Source: Halopseudomonas oceani (lineage in GTDB: Bacteria; Pseudomonadota; Gammaproteobacteria; Pseudomonadales; Pseudomonadaceae). From it: 64,000 nucleotides of DNA. Every line of letters begins with the position of its first letter. The stretch's first letter is position 1. A program made the translations under genes and the position numbers. The notes beneath the pieces were generated by a model, which was not told the DNA's origin, searched no databases, and saw only the letters and a list, made by a program, of their open reading frames with translations. The stretch lies in the NCBI RefSeq assembly GCF_002903165.1, contig NZ_PPSK01000017.1, forward strand, positions 1 to 64,000, given 5' to 3'. Below, piece by piece: positions 46,092 to 56,916 of the stretch.

Positions 46092-47678
46092 ATGAGATGG
46101 CCGTTAGGGGCTACGGTAGGTCAGCCGTTTCGGCGCCTGGCGGTCGGCCTGCTGCTGTTGGCCGTGCTGGGCGCGCTGATTGTCGAAATCATGGCCTGGC
46201 AGTTGCGCTCACTGGAACGTGAGGAAATCGAGAACGACCTCATTATCCGCTCATCGGATGTACGCAGCGCACTGGAAACCCGTTTGCGCGATGGTATTTA
46301 TCTGACCCGAGGCCTGGTTTCCTTCCTTAAAAGCCAGCAGGGGCTGCGCCAGCCGGAAGCCCTTGAGCGCTGGATGGCCAGTATGCTCGCCGACGCTACC
46401 GACATCCGAAACATCGGAATTGCACCGAACAATCGAATCGAGCTGATTTACCCACTTGAGGGCAACGAAGCCGCGCTCGGGCTGGACTACCGTGAATCGC
46501 CGCAGCAGTGGGCAGCAGTCAAGCATATGATGGAAACTCGGGAACCTATGCTCGCGGGCCCGCTGCAACTGATACAGGGTAGCACTGCCTTGATCTACCG
46601 GGCGCCAGTGATCATGGATGGTGAGTACTGGGGACTGGTCAGTACAGTCATGAGTGCTGACAGGGTGCTGGGGATGCTAGATACCGAACAGCGTTGGCAG
46701 GATTTGCGTATCCAGCTGCAGCGCGAACAGGTTGGCGGCGAACCGATTGCCATCTGGGGCGGTGAGTTGATAGACGACGATCAGCCCCGGCATATGATGC
46801 GAATCCATCTGCCGGGGGTAATCTGGCGGCTGGTGGTGCAGAACCGCGAGCCCGTGCGGGAAGCGAGCACCCTGCGCCTTGCGTTCTACGCCGTGCTGGT
46901 GTTGGTCCTTTTGCTGATCGCCTATGTGCGCAGCAACGGGATCAGGCAGCAACTCGAGCGCGAGGCGATGTGGGCCGAGAATGAACGGCTGAAAACAGAC
47001 TTCATTTCTACCATCAATCATGAATTGCGCACGCCGCTGACCAGTATTCTAGGTACCCTTGGGCTGCTCGACGGTGGTGCGACGGGTGTGTTGCCGGACA
47101 AGGCACACGGCATGGTCAGTGTGGCGCGGCGCAATGCCGAACACTTGCTGCGACTGATTAATGATCTGCTGGATATCGACAAACTGGTGGCGGGGCAGCT
47201 CATGCTCGACATGCAACCCCATCGGCTCGACAGCCTGCTACAGGCGGCTATGGAGGAAAACCACGGTTTTGCCTCCCGCCAGCAGATCAGCTGGGTCTAT
47301 GACAATCCTCATCCTGAGGCCTGGGTCAGGGTTGATGCCACCCGTTTCCGTCAGGTGCTGGATAATCTGTTGTCCAATGCCGTGAAGTTCTCCCCGGTCG
47401 GTGCGACGGTCAGCATCTCCGTTTATGCCGAGGATGGCGGCGGTTCATGGTGTGTGGCTGTTGCTGATCAGGGCGAGGGGATTGCGCCAGAGTTTCAGCC
47501 CCGGGTGTTCGAGCGCTTTACGCAAGCGGATGGTTCCAGTCGACGCAAAACCGGCGGTACCGGCCTGGGATTGGCCATTGCCCGTGGCCTGATACAGCAG
47601 ATGGGCGGCGAGATCGACTTTGTTTCCTCATCGCAGGGTACCTGCTTCACCCTGCATATTCCCAAATTGGTCAACTGA
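46092..47678 (+). CDS. Orphan hybrid-less histidine kinase with CHASE-like sensor
   Basis: A 528-aa membrane sensor kinase. TM1 (about 14-34), an extracytoplasmic CHASE-like domain (about 50-240, with SSDVRSALETRLRDGIYLTR and DIRNIGIAPNNRIELIYPLE) and TM2 (about 263-279) precede the cytoplasmic part. The HisKA motif STINHELRTPLTSIL gives phospho-His310. The HATPase has DNLLSNAVKFSP, VADQGEGIAPEF and GGTGLGLAIARG. No response regulator is nearby, so its partner is elsewhere. The ligand is unknown. YjbR-family gene follows after 9 bp. Confidence 0.92.
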   Translation: MRWPLGATVGQPFRRLAVGLLLLAVLGALIVEIMAWQLRSLEREEIENDLIIRSSDVRSALETRLRDGIYLTRGLVSFLKSQQGLRQPEALERWMASMLADATDIRNIGIAPNNRIELIYPLEGNEAALGLDYRESPQQWAAVKHMMETREPMLAGPLQLIQGSTALIYRAPVIMDGEYWGLVSTVMSADRVLGMLDTEQRWQDLRIQLQREQVGGEPIAIWGGELIDDDQPRHMMRIHLPGVIWRLVVQNREPVREASTLRLAFYAVLVLVLLLIAYVRSNGIRQQLEREAMWAENERLKTDFISTINHELRTPLTSILGTLGLLDGGATGVLPDKAHGMVSVARRNAEHLLRLINDLLDIDKLVAGQLMLDMQPHRLDSLLQAAMEENHGFASRQQISWVYDNPHPEAWVRVDATRFRQVLDNLLSNAVKFSPVGATVSISVYAEDGGGSWCVAVADQGEGIAPEFQPRVFERFTQADGSSRRKTGGTGLGLAIARGLIQQMGGEIDFVSSSQGTCFTLHIPKLVN

Positions 47679-48068: not shown

Positions 48069-48164
48069 GTCGTTTGTCGCGACCGACGTGGCCCGTGAAT
48101 TATCTCCACCGCGTCAGCCTGCTACGCTTTGAGCTGGAGAAAATGTTTCTCAGGGAGACGGCGA

Positions 48165-48725
48165 ATGCAGCGGGCGCAGGCAAAACAGCAGTTGGCCAGG
48201 TTGATGATGGCGGAGATGGAAGCGTCTGAGCGCGCCGAGGTCGTTGCCTTCTGGTTCTTCTGCGGGTTCTCTGAAGCTGATCCACAGGTCGCGGCGCTGC
48301 CTGATGCGCTGCGTACTCTGGTCTGCCGCGGTGTCGAGCCCGCCGATCCGAATGACAGTCAGCTTGATCCGCTGGTGCAGGCCAGCCTGGTCGAAGACCT
48401 GTATGGAGTGACCAACGATTATCTACTTGAGGCGTTGACCGAAAGAGGACTGGTGATCGAGCGGATCGACGACGAGGTTGAACCGATGTTTGCCTGCCCC
48501 TGCTGCGGTTATTTCAGCCTCAGCAGTGAGGGTGGCTACGAAATCTGCGCGGTGTGTTTCTGGGAGGATGACGGTGTACGCGACCCCACGGAGGTCAGCG
48601 GGCCGAACCATCTTACCCTGGCTGATGGCCGCAAGAATGTGCAGGCGTTCGGTGCCTGCGATATGGCGTCGGTGGCGCGGGTCGACAGGCAGGCGCGACA
48701 GCGTTACCGTGCTCCGCAGCGCTGA
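48165..48725 (+). CDS. CPCC-type cysteine-rich protein
   Basis: A 186-aa protein whose C-terminal half carries the Cys-rich CPCC motif (FACPCCGYFSLSSEGGYEIC, then AVCFWEDDG), a small zinc-ribbon-like domain found in uncharacterised bacterial proteins. The N-terminal half is helical with no recognised domain. The ATG at 48165 has GGGAG upstream. Function unknown. Confidence 0.82.
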   Translation: MQRAQAKQQLARLMMAEMEASERAEVVAFWFFCGFSEADPQVAALPDALRTLVCRGVEPADPNDSQLDPLVQASLVEDLYGVTNDYLLEALTERGLVIERIDDEVEPMFACPCCGYFSLSSEGGYEICAVCFWEDDGVRDPTEVSGPNHLTLADGRKNVQAFGACDMASVARVDRQARQRYRAPQR

Positions 48726-49649: not shown

Positions 49650-50336
49650 ATGCCCGCCATGACTGAAGCTGCCGTTACCCTATTGTCGATCAATGCTGCC
49701 GAGCCGCAGGCGCTTCGTATTGGTGAGCGTCTTACCCGCACCGGGCATTTCAAGCGGGCGCGCAGCGGTGATGTGCTGATCGGTATCGATGGTATTGCCG
49801 GTGATTTTATCGCCGACATGAAGCACCACGGCGGGCTGGATCAGGCGCTTTACCTCTATAGCAAGGCCGACATGGATTGGTGGAGCGAACAGTTGCAGCG
49901 TCCGCTTGAACCCGGTTTTTTTGGCGAGAATCTGACCTTGTCCCACTGGTGGCCTGAGCTGCGGATTGGCGATCAATTGCACTTGGGTGACCTTGTGCTG
50001 GAAATCACCGCGCCGCGTATTCCCTGTTCAACGTTGGCGGCACGGGTTGGTGACAGCCGTTTTGCCAAGGCTTTCGTCAAGGCAGAGCGCTGCGGAGCCT
50101 ACGCCCGGGTGTTGAAGGAAGGTACCGTCTGCGCTGGGCAGACGGTGGTCGTGACTCCGGGTGACAGCGCCTACCCCAGCATTAACGAAGTCTTTCGTTA
50201 CTGTCACAGCAAGGGGCTGAACCCGACCTTCCTGCGCCGCCTGCTGGCTGCACCGCTGGCCGAGAAGATGCGTGCGGAGATGGAACAGAAGCTCGTCAGG
50301 GCTGAGCAGCAGACCCAGCCGCTACCCGGCCTGTAA
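49650..50336 (+). CDS. MOSC-domain protein (YiiM-like)
   Basis: A 228-aa protein with an N-terminal MOSC domain and a C-terminal YiiM-type 3-alpha extension (DSAYPSINEVFRYCHSKGLN onward). DMKHHGGLDQALYLYSKADM, PGFFGENLTLS and the Cys in APRIPCSTLAARVGDSRFAK are conserved features linked to molybdenum cofactor sulfur chemistry and reduction of N-hydroxylated compounds in E. coli YiiM. ATG 49650 or 49659. The 3' end overlaps the convergent FadJ-like gene by 15 bp. Confidence 0.9.
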   Translation: MPAMTEAAVTLLSINAAEPQALRIGERLTRTGHFKRARSGDVLIGIDGIAGDFIADMKHHGGLDQALYLYSKADMDWWSEQLQRPLEPGFFGENLTLSHWWPELRIGDQLHLGDLVLEITAPRIPCSTLAARVGDSRFAKAFVKAERCGAYARVLKEGTVCAGQTVVVTPGDSAYPSINEVFRYCHSKGLNPTFLRRLLAAPLAEKMRAEMEQKLVRAEQQTQPLPGL

Positions 50337-52427
50337 GGGTTGGCCTGCGTCCGTTTCCTCGGTCACCGGCTGCCAGCCGGGGTCCGGCGCAAAGCGGGGG
50401 CCGAGGTCGGTGCTGAGGCTTTGCAGGCGCTGCATGATCGCCGCATGCCCTGTCTCGCGTGCGTGACACAAAGGGCCGCCGCGAAAGGGCGGGAAATAGC
50501 CGGCCAGGACCAGTGCCGCATCGAGCATGTCGGCGTCGCTGACAATGCCCTGGCGGCAGGCGCGTACGGCGCTGTTGAGCAGACTGAGCAGTAACCGGTC
50601 AGCCTGTTCCGCGTTCAGTTTTGCGGCTCTGCCCTTATTGCCTTTCCAGTGGCTGCGTTTTTTTGCATGTAACGATGTGCGCCCCTGCTCGACCGCGTTG
50701 CGCAAAATCAAGGGCGGTTCTGCCAACGGCGTATCGCGTTCGTTGTGCAAACGCTCGAACAGAGCGAGGCAGTCGCCCAACCCCCAGCTTTCAGCAATCG
50801 CCAGCGGCCCGCGGCTGCAGCCAAACGCCAGCGCCGCTTGGTCGATGGCATCGGCGCTGATCCCTTCTTCCAGTAGCAGCATGGCTTCCAGCAGCCAGGG
50901 GGCCAGGACCCGGCGCAGCAGCAGCCCCGGCTGGCTGCTGACCGGTAACGCTAGACAGCCAAGCTGGCCGACCAACTGGCGGGCCTGTTGCTGGCTGATA
51001 TTGCGGCTGGTGCTGTGCGCGGCAATCTCGACCAGCGCGCCGTAGGACGGCGCGGCGAAGCGCAGCCCCAATAGGCGCCCGGCATCGCCGAGTGCGGCGC
51101 GCAGTGGCTCGACTGGCTCGGCGAAGCTGAGCACCAGTGCCTGTGCCCGCAGCCGCGACTCCAGTTTCTGCAGTTGCTCGCGCCGTTGCTCTAAAGCAGT
51201 CTGCTGGGCGTCTATCAGGGCATCGGCCACGGCTACGCCGTGGTGTTCCGGATCAAAGATCAGGGCATCCAGTGCGTGTTGTCGTTGCTCCTCGTTGCGG
51301 GTCCGCTGGCTGATCTGTTTGATACAGGCCGTCATGCCAGCGGTCGAACCGCCAACACTCACGCGTAGGCCTGCCAGTGCGGCCAGTGCCGCGAGCTGAA
51401 TGCCGTCTTCGCTGTCGCCGAGCAGGTGCAGGTGGGTGAGCCGGCGATTTTCCTTGGCAACGGCCAAATCCTTGAGCCGCTGGCGCTGGAAGAACAGCTG
51501 AATCAGGTGACGGCTGGTCGGACTGTTGATCAATCGGGCGAACGAGTAGATCTCGCGATGCAGCAACAGGTCGGGCTTGCCGCCGTGGCGCTGCCAGAGT
51601 TCGATCAGGGCCTCTGCCGCCGGATAGTGACGTGGATCGGCCTTGGCACTGGCCTGACGGCGCATGTTTGCCGCAGCCAGGCGCCGTACCCAGTCCAGCC
51701 GGAAGGGGCGGCCTTTAAGGTTGCGTCGGTGCAGAGGCAGGCGTCCGGCCAGCGCATCATCAATCAGCGGCCTGAGTTGGTGCTCTGCCGCGACGTGATC
51801 AATAAGGCCGGCCTTGTGAGCCTGCTCTGCTTGCAACGCCTTGCCGGTCAGCATCATGCGCATCGCCAGCAGCGGGTCGATCAGGTCAGGTAGCCGCGCT
51901 GTGGCGCCCAGCCCGGGATGCAGGCCGACCAGAATTTCCGGTAGGCCGGTGCGGGTGTCCGGCGTCGCCAGGCGCATGTCGCAGCACAGTGCGAGCTCCA
52001 GGCCGCCACCGAGGGTCTCGCCGTGCAGCACGGCCAGGGTCGGGCAGGGCAGGTCGATCAGTTGCTGGGCCAGCAGGTGCGCGTCGACCAGCTGCCGTAC
52101 CGCATCGGCTTCGTTGTCGAGCTGACGGAAGTCCTTCAGGTCAGCGCCCATGCAGAATCCTGATGGTTTGGCCGAGCGTATTACCAGCGCGGTTGGCATG
52201 TCGCGGCGGAGGCTGGCCAGCACGTCCCCGAGCTCGATCAGCGCCACTGAGGACAGCAGGTTGGCGCTGCTGTCCGCATGGTCGAACAGCAGCCAGGCGA
52301 CATCACGTTCGTCCCGGCGCAGGCGCCAGTGTTGCCACGGCGACTGCGCAGGCTGCTGCAATTCGAGGTGGTTGAACGGTCCGAGTTCGCGTTCACGCAG
52401 CGTGAGCGTGTCGGGTGCTTGAGTCAT
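50322..52427 (-). CDS. FadJ-like protein with degenerate dehydrogenase domain
   Basis: A 701-aa protein with the layout of FadB/FadJ: enoyl-CoA hydratase then 3-hydroxyacyl-CoA dehydrogenase. The hydratase half keeps GGGLE (Glu144) and GLPE (Glu164), so it may be active. In the dehydrogenase half the dinucleotide motif GxGxxG is replaced by LLGDSEDG (about 335-342), and the catalytic HFF-P motif reads LRFAAP (Arg456 instead of His), although the partner Glu467 (LVEIA) remains. NR in the family GFYVNR reads RR. NAD-dependent oxidation is thus doubtful. AGGAG precedes the ATG, which overlaps the stop of the upstream thiolase-like gene. It was either repurposed or works only as a hydratase. Confidence 0.85.
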   Translation of the reverse strand: MTQAPDTLTLRERELGPFNHLELQQPAQSPWQHWRLRRDERDVAWLLFDHADSSANLLSSVALIELGDVLASLRRDMPTALVIRSAKPSGFCMGADLKDFRQLDNEADAVRQLVDAHLLAQQLIDLPCPTLAVLHGETLGGGLELALCCDMRLATPDTRTGLPEILVGLHPGLGATARLPDLIDPLLAMRMMLTGKALQAEQAHKAGLIDHVAAEHQLRPLIDDALAGRLPLHRRNLKGRPFRLDWVRRLAAANMRRQASAKADPRHYPAAEALIELWQRHGGKPDLLLHREIYSFARLINSPTSRHLIQLFFQRQRLKDLAVAKENRRLTHLHLLGDSEDGIQLAALAALAGLRVSVGGSTAGMTACIKQISQRTRNEEQRQHALDALIFDPEHHGVAVADALIDAQQTALEQRREQLQKLESRLRAQALVLSFAEPVEPLRAALGDAGRLLGLRFAAPSYGALVEIAAHSTSRNISQQQARQLVGQLGCLALPVSSQPGLLLRRVLAPWLLEAMLLLEEGISADAIDQAALAFGCSRGPLAIAESWGLGDCLALFERLHNERDTPLAEPPLILRNAVEQGRTSLHAKKRSHWKGNKGRAAKLNAEQADRLLLSLLNSAVRACRQGIVSDADMLDAALVLAGYFPPFRGGPLCHARETGHAAIMQRLQSLSTDLGPRFAPDPGWQPVTEETDAGQPLQAG

Positions 52428-53485
52428 TCGCTGGTCTCCTGTGGGCGGGTGATCAGCAAGGCCAGCGCGTGGCCGCCTGCGTGCTGTTCGCAGACGATAC
52501 CGCGCGGAAGGTGATTGCGTTGCAGGTTGTCGGCCAGCTGCAGTAATTGGCGGCAGCCGTCGGTGGCGCTCAGTGCGCCAAGGGCAATGCTGCCGCCGTG
52601 GACGTTCAGGCTGCAGGGATCGAGGCGGCCGACCGGCTGCTCCAGTCCGAGCTGGCGGTGGCAGAAATCCGCGTCCTGCCAGGCGGCCAGATGGCTCAGC
52701 AACGCGAGCGCAGGCGATTCCGGCAACTCCCACAGATCAATATCAGCCAGCGACAGCTGTTGCTGGCCCAGCAGGCGCGTGGCGGCCAGCAAGGGGGCCA
52801 ATGTCGGGTACTCGGCGGGTGCCTGCGCATGGCTGCTGGCACCAAGGTGGGCGAGCGGCGTGCGTTTCAGGCGCTGCAGTCCTCTGGGTGAGGCCAGCAG
52901 CAGGGCGCAGGCTCCGGCCACCGCATCTGGTTGGTCCTCGGTGCAGGCGTGGCCCTGACTGTCGAACAGGGTTGTACGGTGTCGGTTCGTCAGGCCGCCC
53001 TGTTCGGCGTCGTCGGCGCGCAGCCGACTGGCCTCGGCAAAGGCGCTGGCGTCCTCATCCTGTACATCAAACAGCCGGGCCAGGCGTTGAGCCGATGTCA
53101 GCAGATCGTTCTGAGGCGTAGCCTTGAGGTCGCTGCTGAGTACCAACACCAGATCGGCATCGCCGCTGCGGATCTGCTGGCTGGCCAGCGCAACGGCAGA
53201 CAGGCCATGGTCGCACTGGTATAACGCGGTATCGGTGTCCAGCCGCAGACGTTTGCGCAGATCCCGTACCTGTGGCTCTGCTTCAGCCGCGAGGATCAGG
53301 CTGTCGAGCAGATGCGGGGTAACTGCGCAGCGCAGCAGCAACGGTGCGCTGCACTGCACGGCCAGGTCGAGCAGGCCGAAGCCGCTGCTCTGCAACGTCG
53401 TGGCGTTGATCTGTGGGGTACGCAGGCCGTCGATGAGAAGAACATCGGCTGGCGTGGAGGCAGAGTGATTGATCTGGCTGTCCAT
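52424..53485 (-). CDS. Thiolase-like protein with altered active site
   Basis: A 353-aa protein, shorter than normal thiolases (about 390-430). The first catalytic region YQCDHGLSAVALASQQI keeps Cys91 in a changed setting (family: CGSGLQA). The last region C-E-Q-H-A-G-G keeps Cys332. The essential GHP is replaced: NVHGGSIALGALSATDG has Gly-Ala-Leu at 303-305, and the NExFA motif reads WELPESPA. Thiolysis or condensation in the normal way is therefore unlikely. It overlaps the FadJ-like gene by 4 bp, so the two are made together. It may be a structural partner or a divergent enzyme. Confidence 0.82.
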   Translation of the reverse strand: MDSQINHSASTPADVLLIDGLRTPQINATTLQSSGFGLLDLAVQCSAPLLLRCAVTPHLLDSLILAAEAEPQVRDLRKRLRLDTDTALYQCDHGLSAVALASQQIRSGDADLVLVLSSDLKATPQNDLLTSAQRLARLFDVQDEDASAFAEASRLRADDAEQGGLTNRHRTTLFDSQGHACTEDQPDAVAGACALLLASPRGLQRLKRTPLAHLGASSHAQAPAEYPTLAPLLAATRLLGQQQLSLADIDLWELPESPALALLSHLAAWQDADFCHRQLGLEQPVGRLDPCSLNVHGGSIALGALSATDGCRQLLQLADNLQRNHLPRGIVCEQHAGGHALALLITRPQETSE

Positions 53486-53625
53486 GCTGGGCTCATGTGG
53501 TTGAACGTCAATTCAGGCTGATGCGCGGTGCAGGCCCGAGCGAACTCCCGCAATAGGAGCGCTGCGCAGGCTATGACCGGACCGACCCGGATCAGTTCAG
53601 TGTAGATAAGCTGGGGGCCTAGACA

Positions 53626-53658
53626 GAAACAAAAGCGCGGCGCCGTGATTGGCGCCGC
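53626..53658 (-). terminator. Terminator of the acetyl-CoA acetyltransferase gene
   Basis: On the minus strand GCGGCGCC (53658-53651) / GGCGCCGC (53644-53637), then GCTTTTGTTTC. Good GC stem with a mixed T-tract. Confidence 0.82.
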
Positions 53659-53670
53659 GGGAGGCGGGGA

Positions 53671-54852
53671 TCAGTCGCGGGCCAATGCCAGCGCCACGCC
53701 CTGGCCGCCACCGATGCACAGGGTAGCCAGGCCTTTCTTGGCGTCACGGCGCAGCATTTCGTGCAGCAGGGTAACCAGCACACGGCAGCCGGAGGCGCCG
53801 ATCGGATGGCCCAGCGCGATGGCGCCACCGTTGACGTTGACCTTGTCTGCATCCCACTGCAGCTCCTTGCCGACTGCCAGCGCCTGGGCGGCGAAGGCTT
53901 CGTTGGCTTCGATCAGGTCCAGGTCGGCAACCTGCCAGCCTGCCTTAGCCAGGCAGCGCTGGGTGGCGGAGACCGGGCCAATGCCCATGATCGCCGGATC
54001 AACGCCCGCGTTGGCATAGGAGGCGACGCGAGCCAGTACCGGCAGGCCCAGCTCGGCGGCTTTGCTGGCGCTCATCATCAGCACGGCGGCGGCGCCATCG
54101 TTAAGGCTAGAAGCATTACCGGCGGTAACGCTGCCCTCTTTCCTGAAGGCCGGTTTGAGGCTGCCGAGGCTTTCTGCGGTGGTCCCGGCGCGCGGCTGCT
54201 CATCCCGGGTGATCAGCAGGGCATCGCCCTTGCGCTGAGGGATGCTGACCGGGGTGATTTCCTTGTCAAAGACGCCGGCGTCGCGGGCGGCAACGGCTTT
54301 CTGCTGGGACGCTGCGGCGAAAGCGTCCTGTTCTTCACGGCTGAGGCCATACTTGTCGACCAGGTTTTCGGCAGTAATGCCCATGTGGTAGTTGTTGAAG
54401 GCGTCCCACAGGCCATCCTGGATCATTGTGTCGATCATCTGGCCGTGGCCCATGCGCTGACCGGTGCGCGAGGTGGGGATGATGTGCGGTGACAGGCTCA
54501 TGGACTCCTGGCCACCGGCTATCATGATCTCGGCATCGCCGCAGCGGATCGCCTGAGCGGCGAGGTGCAGGGCTTTGAGGCCGGAGCCACAGACCTTATT
54601 CAGGGTAAGAGCGGGAACACTGTGCGGCAGGCCTGCGTGGATGGCAGCCTGGCGAGCGGGATTCTGGCCGCAACCAGCGGTCAGCACCTGTCCGAATATG
54701 ACCTCGTCGACGGATGCAGGGTCGATTTCAGTCTCGTCCAGCAAGCGGCGGATGACGGTGGCTCCCAGCTCGTGGGCGGGCACCTTGGCAAACTGGCCCC
54801 CGAAACTGCCGATGGCGGTACGGGTGGCGGCAACAATCACGACCTCTTGCAT
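53671..54852 (-). CDS. Acetyl-CoA C-acetyltransferase (biosynthetic-type thiolase)
   Basis: A 393-aa thiolase joining or cleaving acetoacetyl-CoA (AtoB/PhaA type). All catalytic residues are present: Cys88 ([10 protein letters not shown]), His349 ([14 protein letters not shown]) and Cys379 (CIGGGQG), with NEAFA also intact. This contrasts with the degenerate thiolase 190 bp downstream. AGAGGAG precedes the ATG. It is followed by a terminator. Together with acs upstream it suggests short-chain acyl-CoA metabolism. Confidence 0.96.

Positions 54853-54975: not shown

Positions 54976-56916
<1,941 letters not shown>

Follow-up and report, generated by a model that had tools for sequence, protein, structure and literature searches.

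A FadI/FadJ-type gene pair in Halopseudomonas that keeps its hydratase residues and has lost those of its dehydrogenase and thiolase

Results

Two subunits with altered catalytic motifs

We analysed the first 64,000 nucleotides of a contig of Halopseudomonas oceani (NZ_PPSK01000017.1; hereafter the window), from a genome of 4,155,021 bases in 64 contigs. We take Pseudomonas oceani to be now placed in Halopseudomonas, which agrees with its relatives here. On its reverse strand the window carries two overlapping genes that encode a thiolase-like beta subunit and a FadJ-like alpha subunit of the kind found in the trifunctional enzyme of beta-oxidation (Table 1). Orthologous pairs in the genus occur in two forms: an active form with canonical motifs, and an eroded form, represented by the window, in which the dehydrogenase and thiolase motifs are lost and the hydratase residues are kept. 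The eroded pair is probably a trifunctional FadI/FadJ-type enzyme that was turned in place into a one-activity complex, in which a pseudo-dehydrogenase/pseudo-thiolase scaffold carries a hydratase (or isomerase).

The FadJ-like protein scored above the Pfam cut-offs for ECH_1 (110 bits) and 3HCDH (50 bits), and its nicotinamide adenine dinucleotide (NAD)-binding domain (HACD_N) reached 20.5 bits in the Pfam protein scan, against a cut-off of 22. The best NCBIfam model was FadJ (NF008363), with 255 of the 869 bits needed. The alpha subunit shows the order ECH, HACD_N, HACD_C, its gene is coupled to that of a thiolase-family beta subunit, and its fold was predicted to be intact (mean predicted local distance difference test score (pLDDT) 89.6). 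The longest possible frame has 803 residues from a GTG, which is only a mechanical maximum, and the ATG start is preferred. Motifs were compared in alignments of 16 pairs, 15 from relatives and the window's own. Both hydratase glutamates, borne by GLELAL and LPE(I/V), are kept in all six eroded species; GxGxxG, EAVPED, NTSS, HFFNP and FLVNR of the dehydrogenase are all replaced in the same six. Two substitutions, H456R at the catalytic His and N505R at the active-site Asn, are fixed in the eroded proteins, and 63 fixed differences from the active form were listed in total, one of them a gap column. The alignments thus indicate a FadJ-like protein whose ECH domain is intact and whose 3-hydroxyacyl-coenzyme A (CoA) dehydrogenase domains are without catalytic residues.

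The thiolase-like protein lies above the Pfam cut-off for Thiolase_C and below that for Thiolase_N, and its fold was likewise predicted to be intact (mean pLDDT 90.2). It is 84 residues shorter than the 437-residue protein of the sister species H. sabulinigri (G010) and P. neustonica (G013). About 50 residues are gone after the nucleophile Cys, and the lost segment is the TAGN region; in the alignment, a large part of the loop region shaping the CoA pocket is missing. TAGN, NEAF, GHP and the second catalytic Cys are absent from all six eroded proteins, where NEAF is replaced by LPESPA, LPDTPA or LPDAPA. Among the 41 fixed differences listed are N255P, T332C and C334Q. Relatives of the pair among solved structures were trifunctional-enzyme subunits, hydratases and thiolases, although some of these lists re-examine Foldseek hits and have no power of exclusion.

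A preliminary description of the window, made from its letters alone, had named most of these features. Its account of two intact genes with 4-bp coupling was borne out by the shared ATGA, and the retained glutamates 144 and 164, the loss of the NAD glycines (LLGDSEDG) and of the catalytic His (LRFAAP), the missing GHP and NExFA and the shortness of the partner all recurred in the alignments. It counted two retained thiolase cysteines, which holds for the nucleophile Cys91 and fails for the second: Cys332, the visible one, precedes the catalytic column by two residues, and in that column the eroded protein has Gln334. No standard GxGxxG, HFF or GHP was found displaced elsewhere in the 16 aligned pairs or in the 80 loci described below, and a search for the same pair with the same substitutions recovered it in all six species of one Halopseudomonas clade.

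Table 1 Features of the gene pair and its surroundings. Positions are those of the window unless a locus is named.
Feature	Position	Strand	Remark
FadJ-like alpha subunit gene	50322..52427	-	701 residues counted from ATG
Thiolase-like beta subunit gene	52424..53485	-	353 residues
ATGA overlap of thiolase-like stop and FadJ-like start	52424..52427	-	common to six of six eroded species
Hydratase Glu144, kept	51996..51998	-	alignment; six of six eroded species
Hydratase Glu164, kept	51936..51938	-	alignment; six of six eroded species
LLGDSEDG (residues 335-342), replacing the NAD-binding glycine motif (VIGAGAMG in G010)	51402..51425	-	alignment
LRFAAP (residues 455-460), replacing (I/L)HFFNP; catalytic His to Arg456	51048..51065	-	alignment
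Thiolase nucleophile Cys91, kept	53213..53215	-	alignment; six of six eroded species
Pro255 (LPESPA), at the place of the NEAFA Asn	52721..52723	-	alignment
GAL (residues 303-305), at the place of GHP	52571..52579	-	alignment
Gln334, at the place of the second catalytic Cys (CIGGG)	52484..52486	-	alignment
Promoter-like element TGAACTGA-N13-GGTCATAGCCT	53569..53599	-	partly common to active-form sister species
Terminator-like hairpin	53636..53659	-	3' of phaA, between phaA and the pair
Canonical acetyl-CoA acetyltransferase (PhaA/AtoB type), syntenic neighbour	53671..54852	-	family scan; upstream of the pair
Acetyl-CoA synthetase (acs), syntenic neighbour	54976..56916	-	family scan; upstream of the pair
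MOSC/YiiM-type gene	49650-50336	+	convergent; 3' end overlaps FadJ-like 3' end by 15 bases
Acetyl-CoA hydrolase/transferase-type gene	L032:9066-10928, L033:5027-6892, L036:9726-11642		near active-form pair

Distribution of the eroded and active forms

The FadJ-like protein was matched at E 1e-60 or better in 16 of 144 genomes, and the partner thiolase at E 1e-12 or better in 14 of the 37 genus genomes, the window's own genome being included in both counts. Six species, a small marine group, carry the eroded form: H. oceani, H. aestusnigri (G006), P. abyssi (G002), UBA836 (G017), H. pachastrellae (G022) and G034. Eight species, including H. sabulinigri, P. neustonica, H. pelagia (G011) and H. 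laoshanensis (G023), carry the active form, with canonical motifs wherever sequence covers them (in G020 only the C-terminal 120 thiolase residues are covered). Since the losses are common to all six species of the clade while the eight others are canonical where covered, they are more than chance. The ATGA overlap was read directly in four of the six eroded species and deduced from the next bases in G006 and G022.

Outside the genus, we examined the best 80 of 481 relatives from a collection of 84,980 species. The scan was seeded with the LELALCCD and AWLL patterns, so forms without both would escape it; because one seed is the first hydratase Glu motif, most recovered loci carry that Glu by design, and the scan says nothing on its loss elsewhere. 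Letters were present at the GxGxxG column in 65 loci; four eroded Halopseudomonas loci lack the motif and the other 61 of 61 have it. Of the 65 loci with letters at HFF, 60 have the His, which is absent from the four eroded ones and from a cyanobacterial metagenome-assembled genome (MAG). The four eroded loci lack [NH]EAF, GHP and the second Cys in their partner thiolases, and all 49 others of the 53 thiolases have all three. No similar eroded pair was seen elsewhere: across 390 genomes of the order, the short thiolase had matches at E 1e-20 or better in 16, and apart from that of the window itself all of these (15) fall in full-length open frames of 428-494 residues.

Two loci of the wider scan stood apart. 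The cyanobacterial MAG (SZAS-4) has a FadJ-like open reading frame (L111:4920-6875) with LQFFHP at the HFF place and an empty GxGxxG column, possibly a second independent loss, or an effect of alignment or assembly. In a Sulfurimonadaceae MAG (L109:3663-4980) the partner thiolase is divided over two overlapping frames.

No second, active copy of the pair was detected in the eroded species, the best-E-value match to the active beta subunit having 37-38% identity in the six genomes; partial matches to its C-terminal half reached up to 49%. The next-best match of the FadJ-like protein within its own genome was 28%.

Conversion at the original locus

The order acs-phaA-thiolase-FadJ is common to the eroded form and its sister clade, with acs in other species judged from open-frame length and sequence resemblance. 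A phaA tree of 29 rows (phaA matched in 35 of 37 genus genomes; 30 loci were taken, and G030 was missed by the start pattern) placed the eroded species in one clade (100/98), sister to the active-form G033, G013 and G010 (100/98). The FadJ tree agrees with it. Its eroded stem measures 1.27 changes per site, compared with 0.04-0.06 for the sister end branches, and the eroded end branches measure 0.01-0.10; five of the six eroded rows have an atypical letter make-up. The change was uneven along the protein. With the topology fixed, the stem was 0.47 for ECH, 0.25 for the linker, 1.46 for HACD_N, 1.46 for C1, 1.48 for C2 and 1.36 for the N-terminal 35 residues, so that the hydratase domain and linker are the least changed parts of the FadJ-like protein; the thiolase stem was 1.34. 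Between the two eroded sub-clades, dN (nonsynonymous divergence) was 0.015 for phaA, 0.27 for the FadJ-like gene and 0.40 for the thiolase-like gene.

The long stem and the atypical make-up could also be expected if an unrelated eroded family had replaced the pair by xenologous transfer. We regard this as highly improbable. The hydratase-plus-linker part alone placed the eroded clade as in the phaA tree (100/98), which speaks against a foreign replacement and against a long-branch artefact; the pair sits at the same locus and has the MDSQ N-terminus and the promoter-like element in common with the sister clade; and nothing similar was found in the other genomes and loci searched. The trees and the gene order instead indicate that a trifunctional FadI/FadJ-type pair was converted at its own locus in one Halopseudomonas clade, because the eight other species of the genus with the pair are canonical where covered, and three of them, with the pair likewise next to acs and phaA, form the sister clade.

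Both genes remain under selection

The ratio of nonsynonymous to synonymous divergence (dN/dS) was computed pairwise by NG86. We relied on pairs within the eroded sub-clades (1 + 6), because dS is about 1 between sub-clades and nearly saturated. Within them, dN/dS was 0.057-0.127 for the FadJ-like gene and 0.147-0.199 for the thiolase-like gene; six active-form pairs gave 0.034-0.060 and 0.017-0.063, respectively, and phaA among the eroded species gave 0.024-0.039. No internal stop occurs in the 12 genes (both genes in the six eroded species). A simple neutral expectation from half of the pairwise dS is 15-20 stops per lineage for the FadJ-like gene and 8-10 for the thiolase-like gene. Stops, frameshifts and a dN/dS near 1, the marks of a pseudogene, were seen in neither gene. 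The ATGA overlap and the promoter-like element have been retained as well. By these measures both genes are under purifying selection, though constraint is weaker than in the active form.

Slow decay of a dispensable operon is, in our judgement, distinctly unlikely. It would fit the raised dN/dS and the patchy occurrence of the pair, whose thiolase was not found at E 1e-12 in 23 of the 37 genus genomes, including G029 and G018. It sits poorly with the uninterrupted frames, with ratios far below 1 and with end branches that are short again after the long stem. The preliminary description had argued that this is not simple decay, and the ratios agree; its suggestion of a complex that hydrates or carries acyl-CoA but leaves the cycle unfinished is likewise supported, as neither neutral ratios nor standard motifs displaced elsewhere came to light.

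Genomic context

A terminator-like hairpin separates phaA from the pair, which is therefore probably its own transcription unit. The promoter-like element (TGAACTGA, then GTC-TA--CT) was seen in the six eroded and in three active-form species, the first base of TGAACTGA differing in one of the nine; a sigma-70 consensus scan upstream of the pair gave no promoter match, including at this element. Elsewhere in its genome H. oceani has five strong dehydrogenase loci (150-221 bits) and seven loci of the thiolase family (motifs checked in two), and it therefore probably does not rely on this pair for beta-oxidation. An acetyl-CoA hydrolase/transferase-type (CoA-transferase) gene lies near the pair in six of the eight active-form species. 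None of the six eroded genomes matched it at E 1e-20, and neither did G029 or G018, two genomes with no pair within 1.5 kb 3' of phaA and no partner thiolase match at E 1e-12. A MOSC gene is found near the pair in locus L035 as well. Elsewhere on the forward strand of the window, a CHASE-domain histidine kinase (46092-47678) lies near a cysteine-rich CPCC protein (48129-48725).

Comparison with known systems

The pair has the domain order and fold of the FadI/FadJ enzyme anEcTFE (PDB 8bnr, 6ysv), its alpha subunit aligning over 645 residues of 6ysv_B; unlike that enzyme, it falls far below the FadJ equivalog cut-off, has lost the dehydrogenase and thiolase sites and has a short beta subunit. 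Another close system is the orthologous active pair of Halopseudomonas; in the sister clade (G010, G013 and G033) it occupies the same place next to acs and phaA, and it differs in its three canonical sites and in the CoA-transferase gene often nearby. MsTLP1 of Mycobacterium smegmatis resembles the thiolase-like protein in having a thiolase fold without the thiolase fingerprints, and no thiolase activity is reported for it (PMC3406046). MsTLP1, however, has no nucleophile Cys, occurs as a monomer and carries a loop domain of the usual length, whereas the thiolase-like protein of the window keeps the Cys, has its loop region cut and is encoded by a gene coupled to a FadJ-like partner. The open literature searched yielded no paper describing this pair or a trifunctional enzyme in which two sites are dead, and no trifunctional operon reported as a double pseudoenzyme with its hydratase kept.

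The altered thiolase pocket, with Cys91 and the new fixed Cys332 and Gln334, might alternatively have acquired new chemistry, an option that the preliminary description also raised, and act on the hydrated product, for example by acyl transfer or by a retro-aldol split without NAD. There is likewise a slim chance that the remodelled pocket handles, without NAD, the 3-hydroxyacyl-CoA made by the hydratase, as a short non-oxidative branch of beta-oxidation. The many fixed differences between the two forms would suit new chemistry. The YDHF/YDCY aldolase motif presumably falls at the NEAF place of the thiolase alignment. A precedent exists in Shy/Sal and Ltp2, in which a hydratase is paired with a thiolase-fold partner that is no thiolase but, in Sal, an aldolase (PMC11321319, PMC12329534), although in Shy the hydratase is of the MaoC type and has a DUF35 domain, and that of the window is crotonase-type, inside a FadJ frame. 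We consider new chemistry very unlikely, as the motif of the steroid-type aldolases Sal and Ltp2 described in PMC12329534 is not visible at the LPESPA/LPDTPA/LPDAPA place, for which reason an aldolase of this type was rejected, and much of the loop region, which shapes the CoA pocket (PMC3406046), is deleted.

Discussion

We favour a one-activity complex derived from the trifunctional enzyme. In such a complex the two subunits would still assemble like the trifunctional enzyme, and the pseudo-thiolase dimer and pseudo-dehydrogenase domains would form a scaffold, possibly with surfaces for docking acyl-CoA or for regulation. The hydratase (or enoyl-CoA isomerase) site would still work, and its 3-hydroxyacyl-CoA product may be handed to the cell's other dehydrogenases and thiolases. 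The two alpha chains of a trifunctional enzyme rest on a dimer of thiolase subunits (PMC11301753), so a dead thiolase could plausibly serve as a scaffold.

Alternatively, the complex may have no catalysis left and instead bind acyl-CoA or regulate, sensing or buffering acyl-CoA or modulating another beta-oxidation enzyme. Two of its three sites look dead, pseudoenzymes can serve as regulators or scaffolds (PMC10211241), and the CoA-transferase near most active pairs has no match in the eroded genomes. Pure binding, however, would need neither the two hydratase glutamates, kept in every eroded species, nor a hydratase domain and linker that changed least, and we hold this alternative to be unlikely.

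Several observations weigh against the one-activity complex that we prefer. A retained Glu is no proof of activity, and the present evidence fits a hydratase and an isomerase alike. The NAD-binding domain scored 23.9 bits in the genome search, just above the Pfam cut-off of 22, and the predicted folds of both subunits depend on alignments rich in active relatives. Rapid change continued past the common stem, with sub-clade stems of 0.15 and 0.31 in the FadJ tree. Constraint is also weaker: compared with the active form, dN/dS is about 1.5-3 times as high for the FadJ-like gene and about 5 times as high for the thiolase-like gene, with constraint weakest in the thiolase N half (0.175-0.279), and between sub-clades it reaches 0.23-0.31 and 0.31-0.37, respectively.

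Were they assigned from similarity, names such as acetyl-CoA acyltransferase or FadJ would be wrong for the eroded species. The genus offers a natural before-and-after experiment: one operon is found both as a full three-activity machine and in a version in which two sites are apparently dead, and the transition maps to a single branch. With it one can test whether a multi-step channelling complex requires its other subunits as a scaffold even if a single site is functional, and how two partner proteins become pseudoenzymes in concert.

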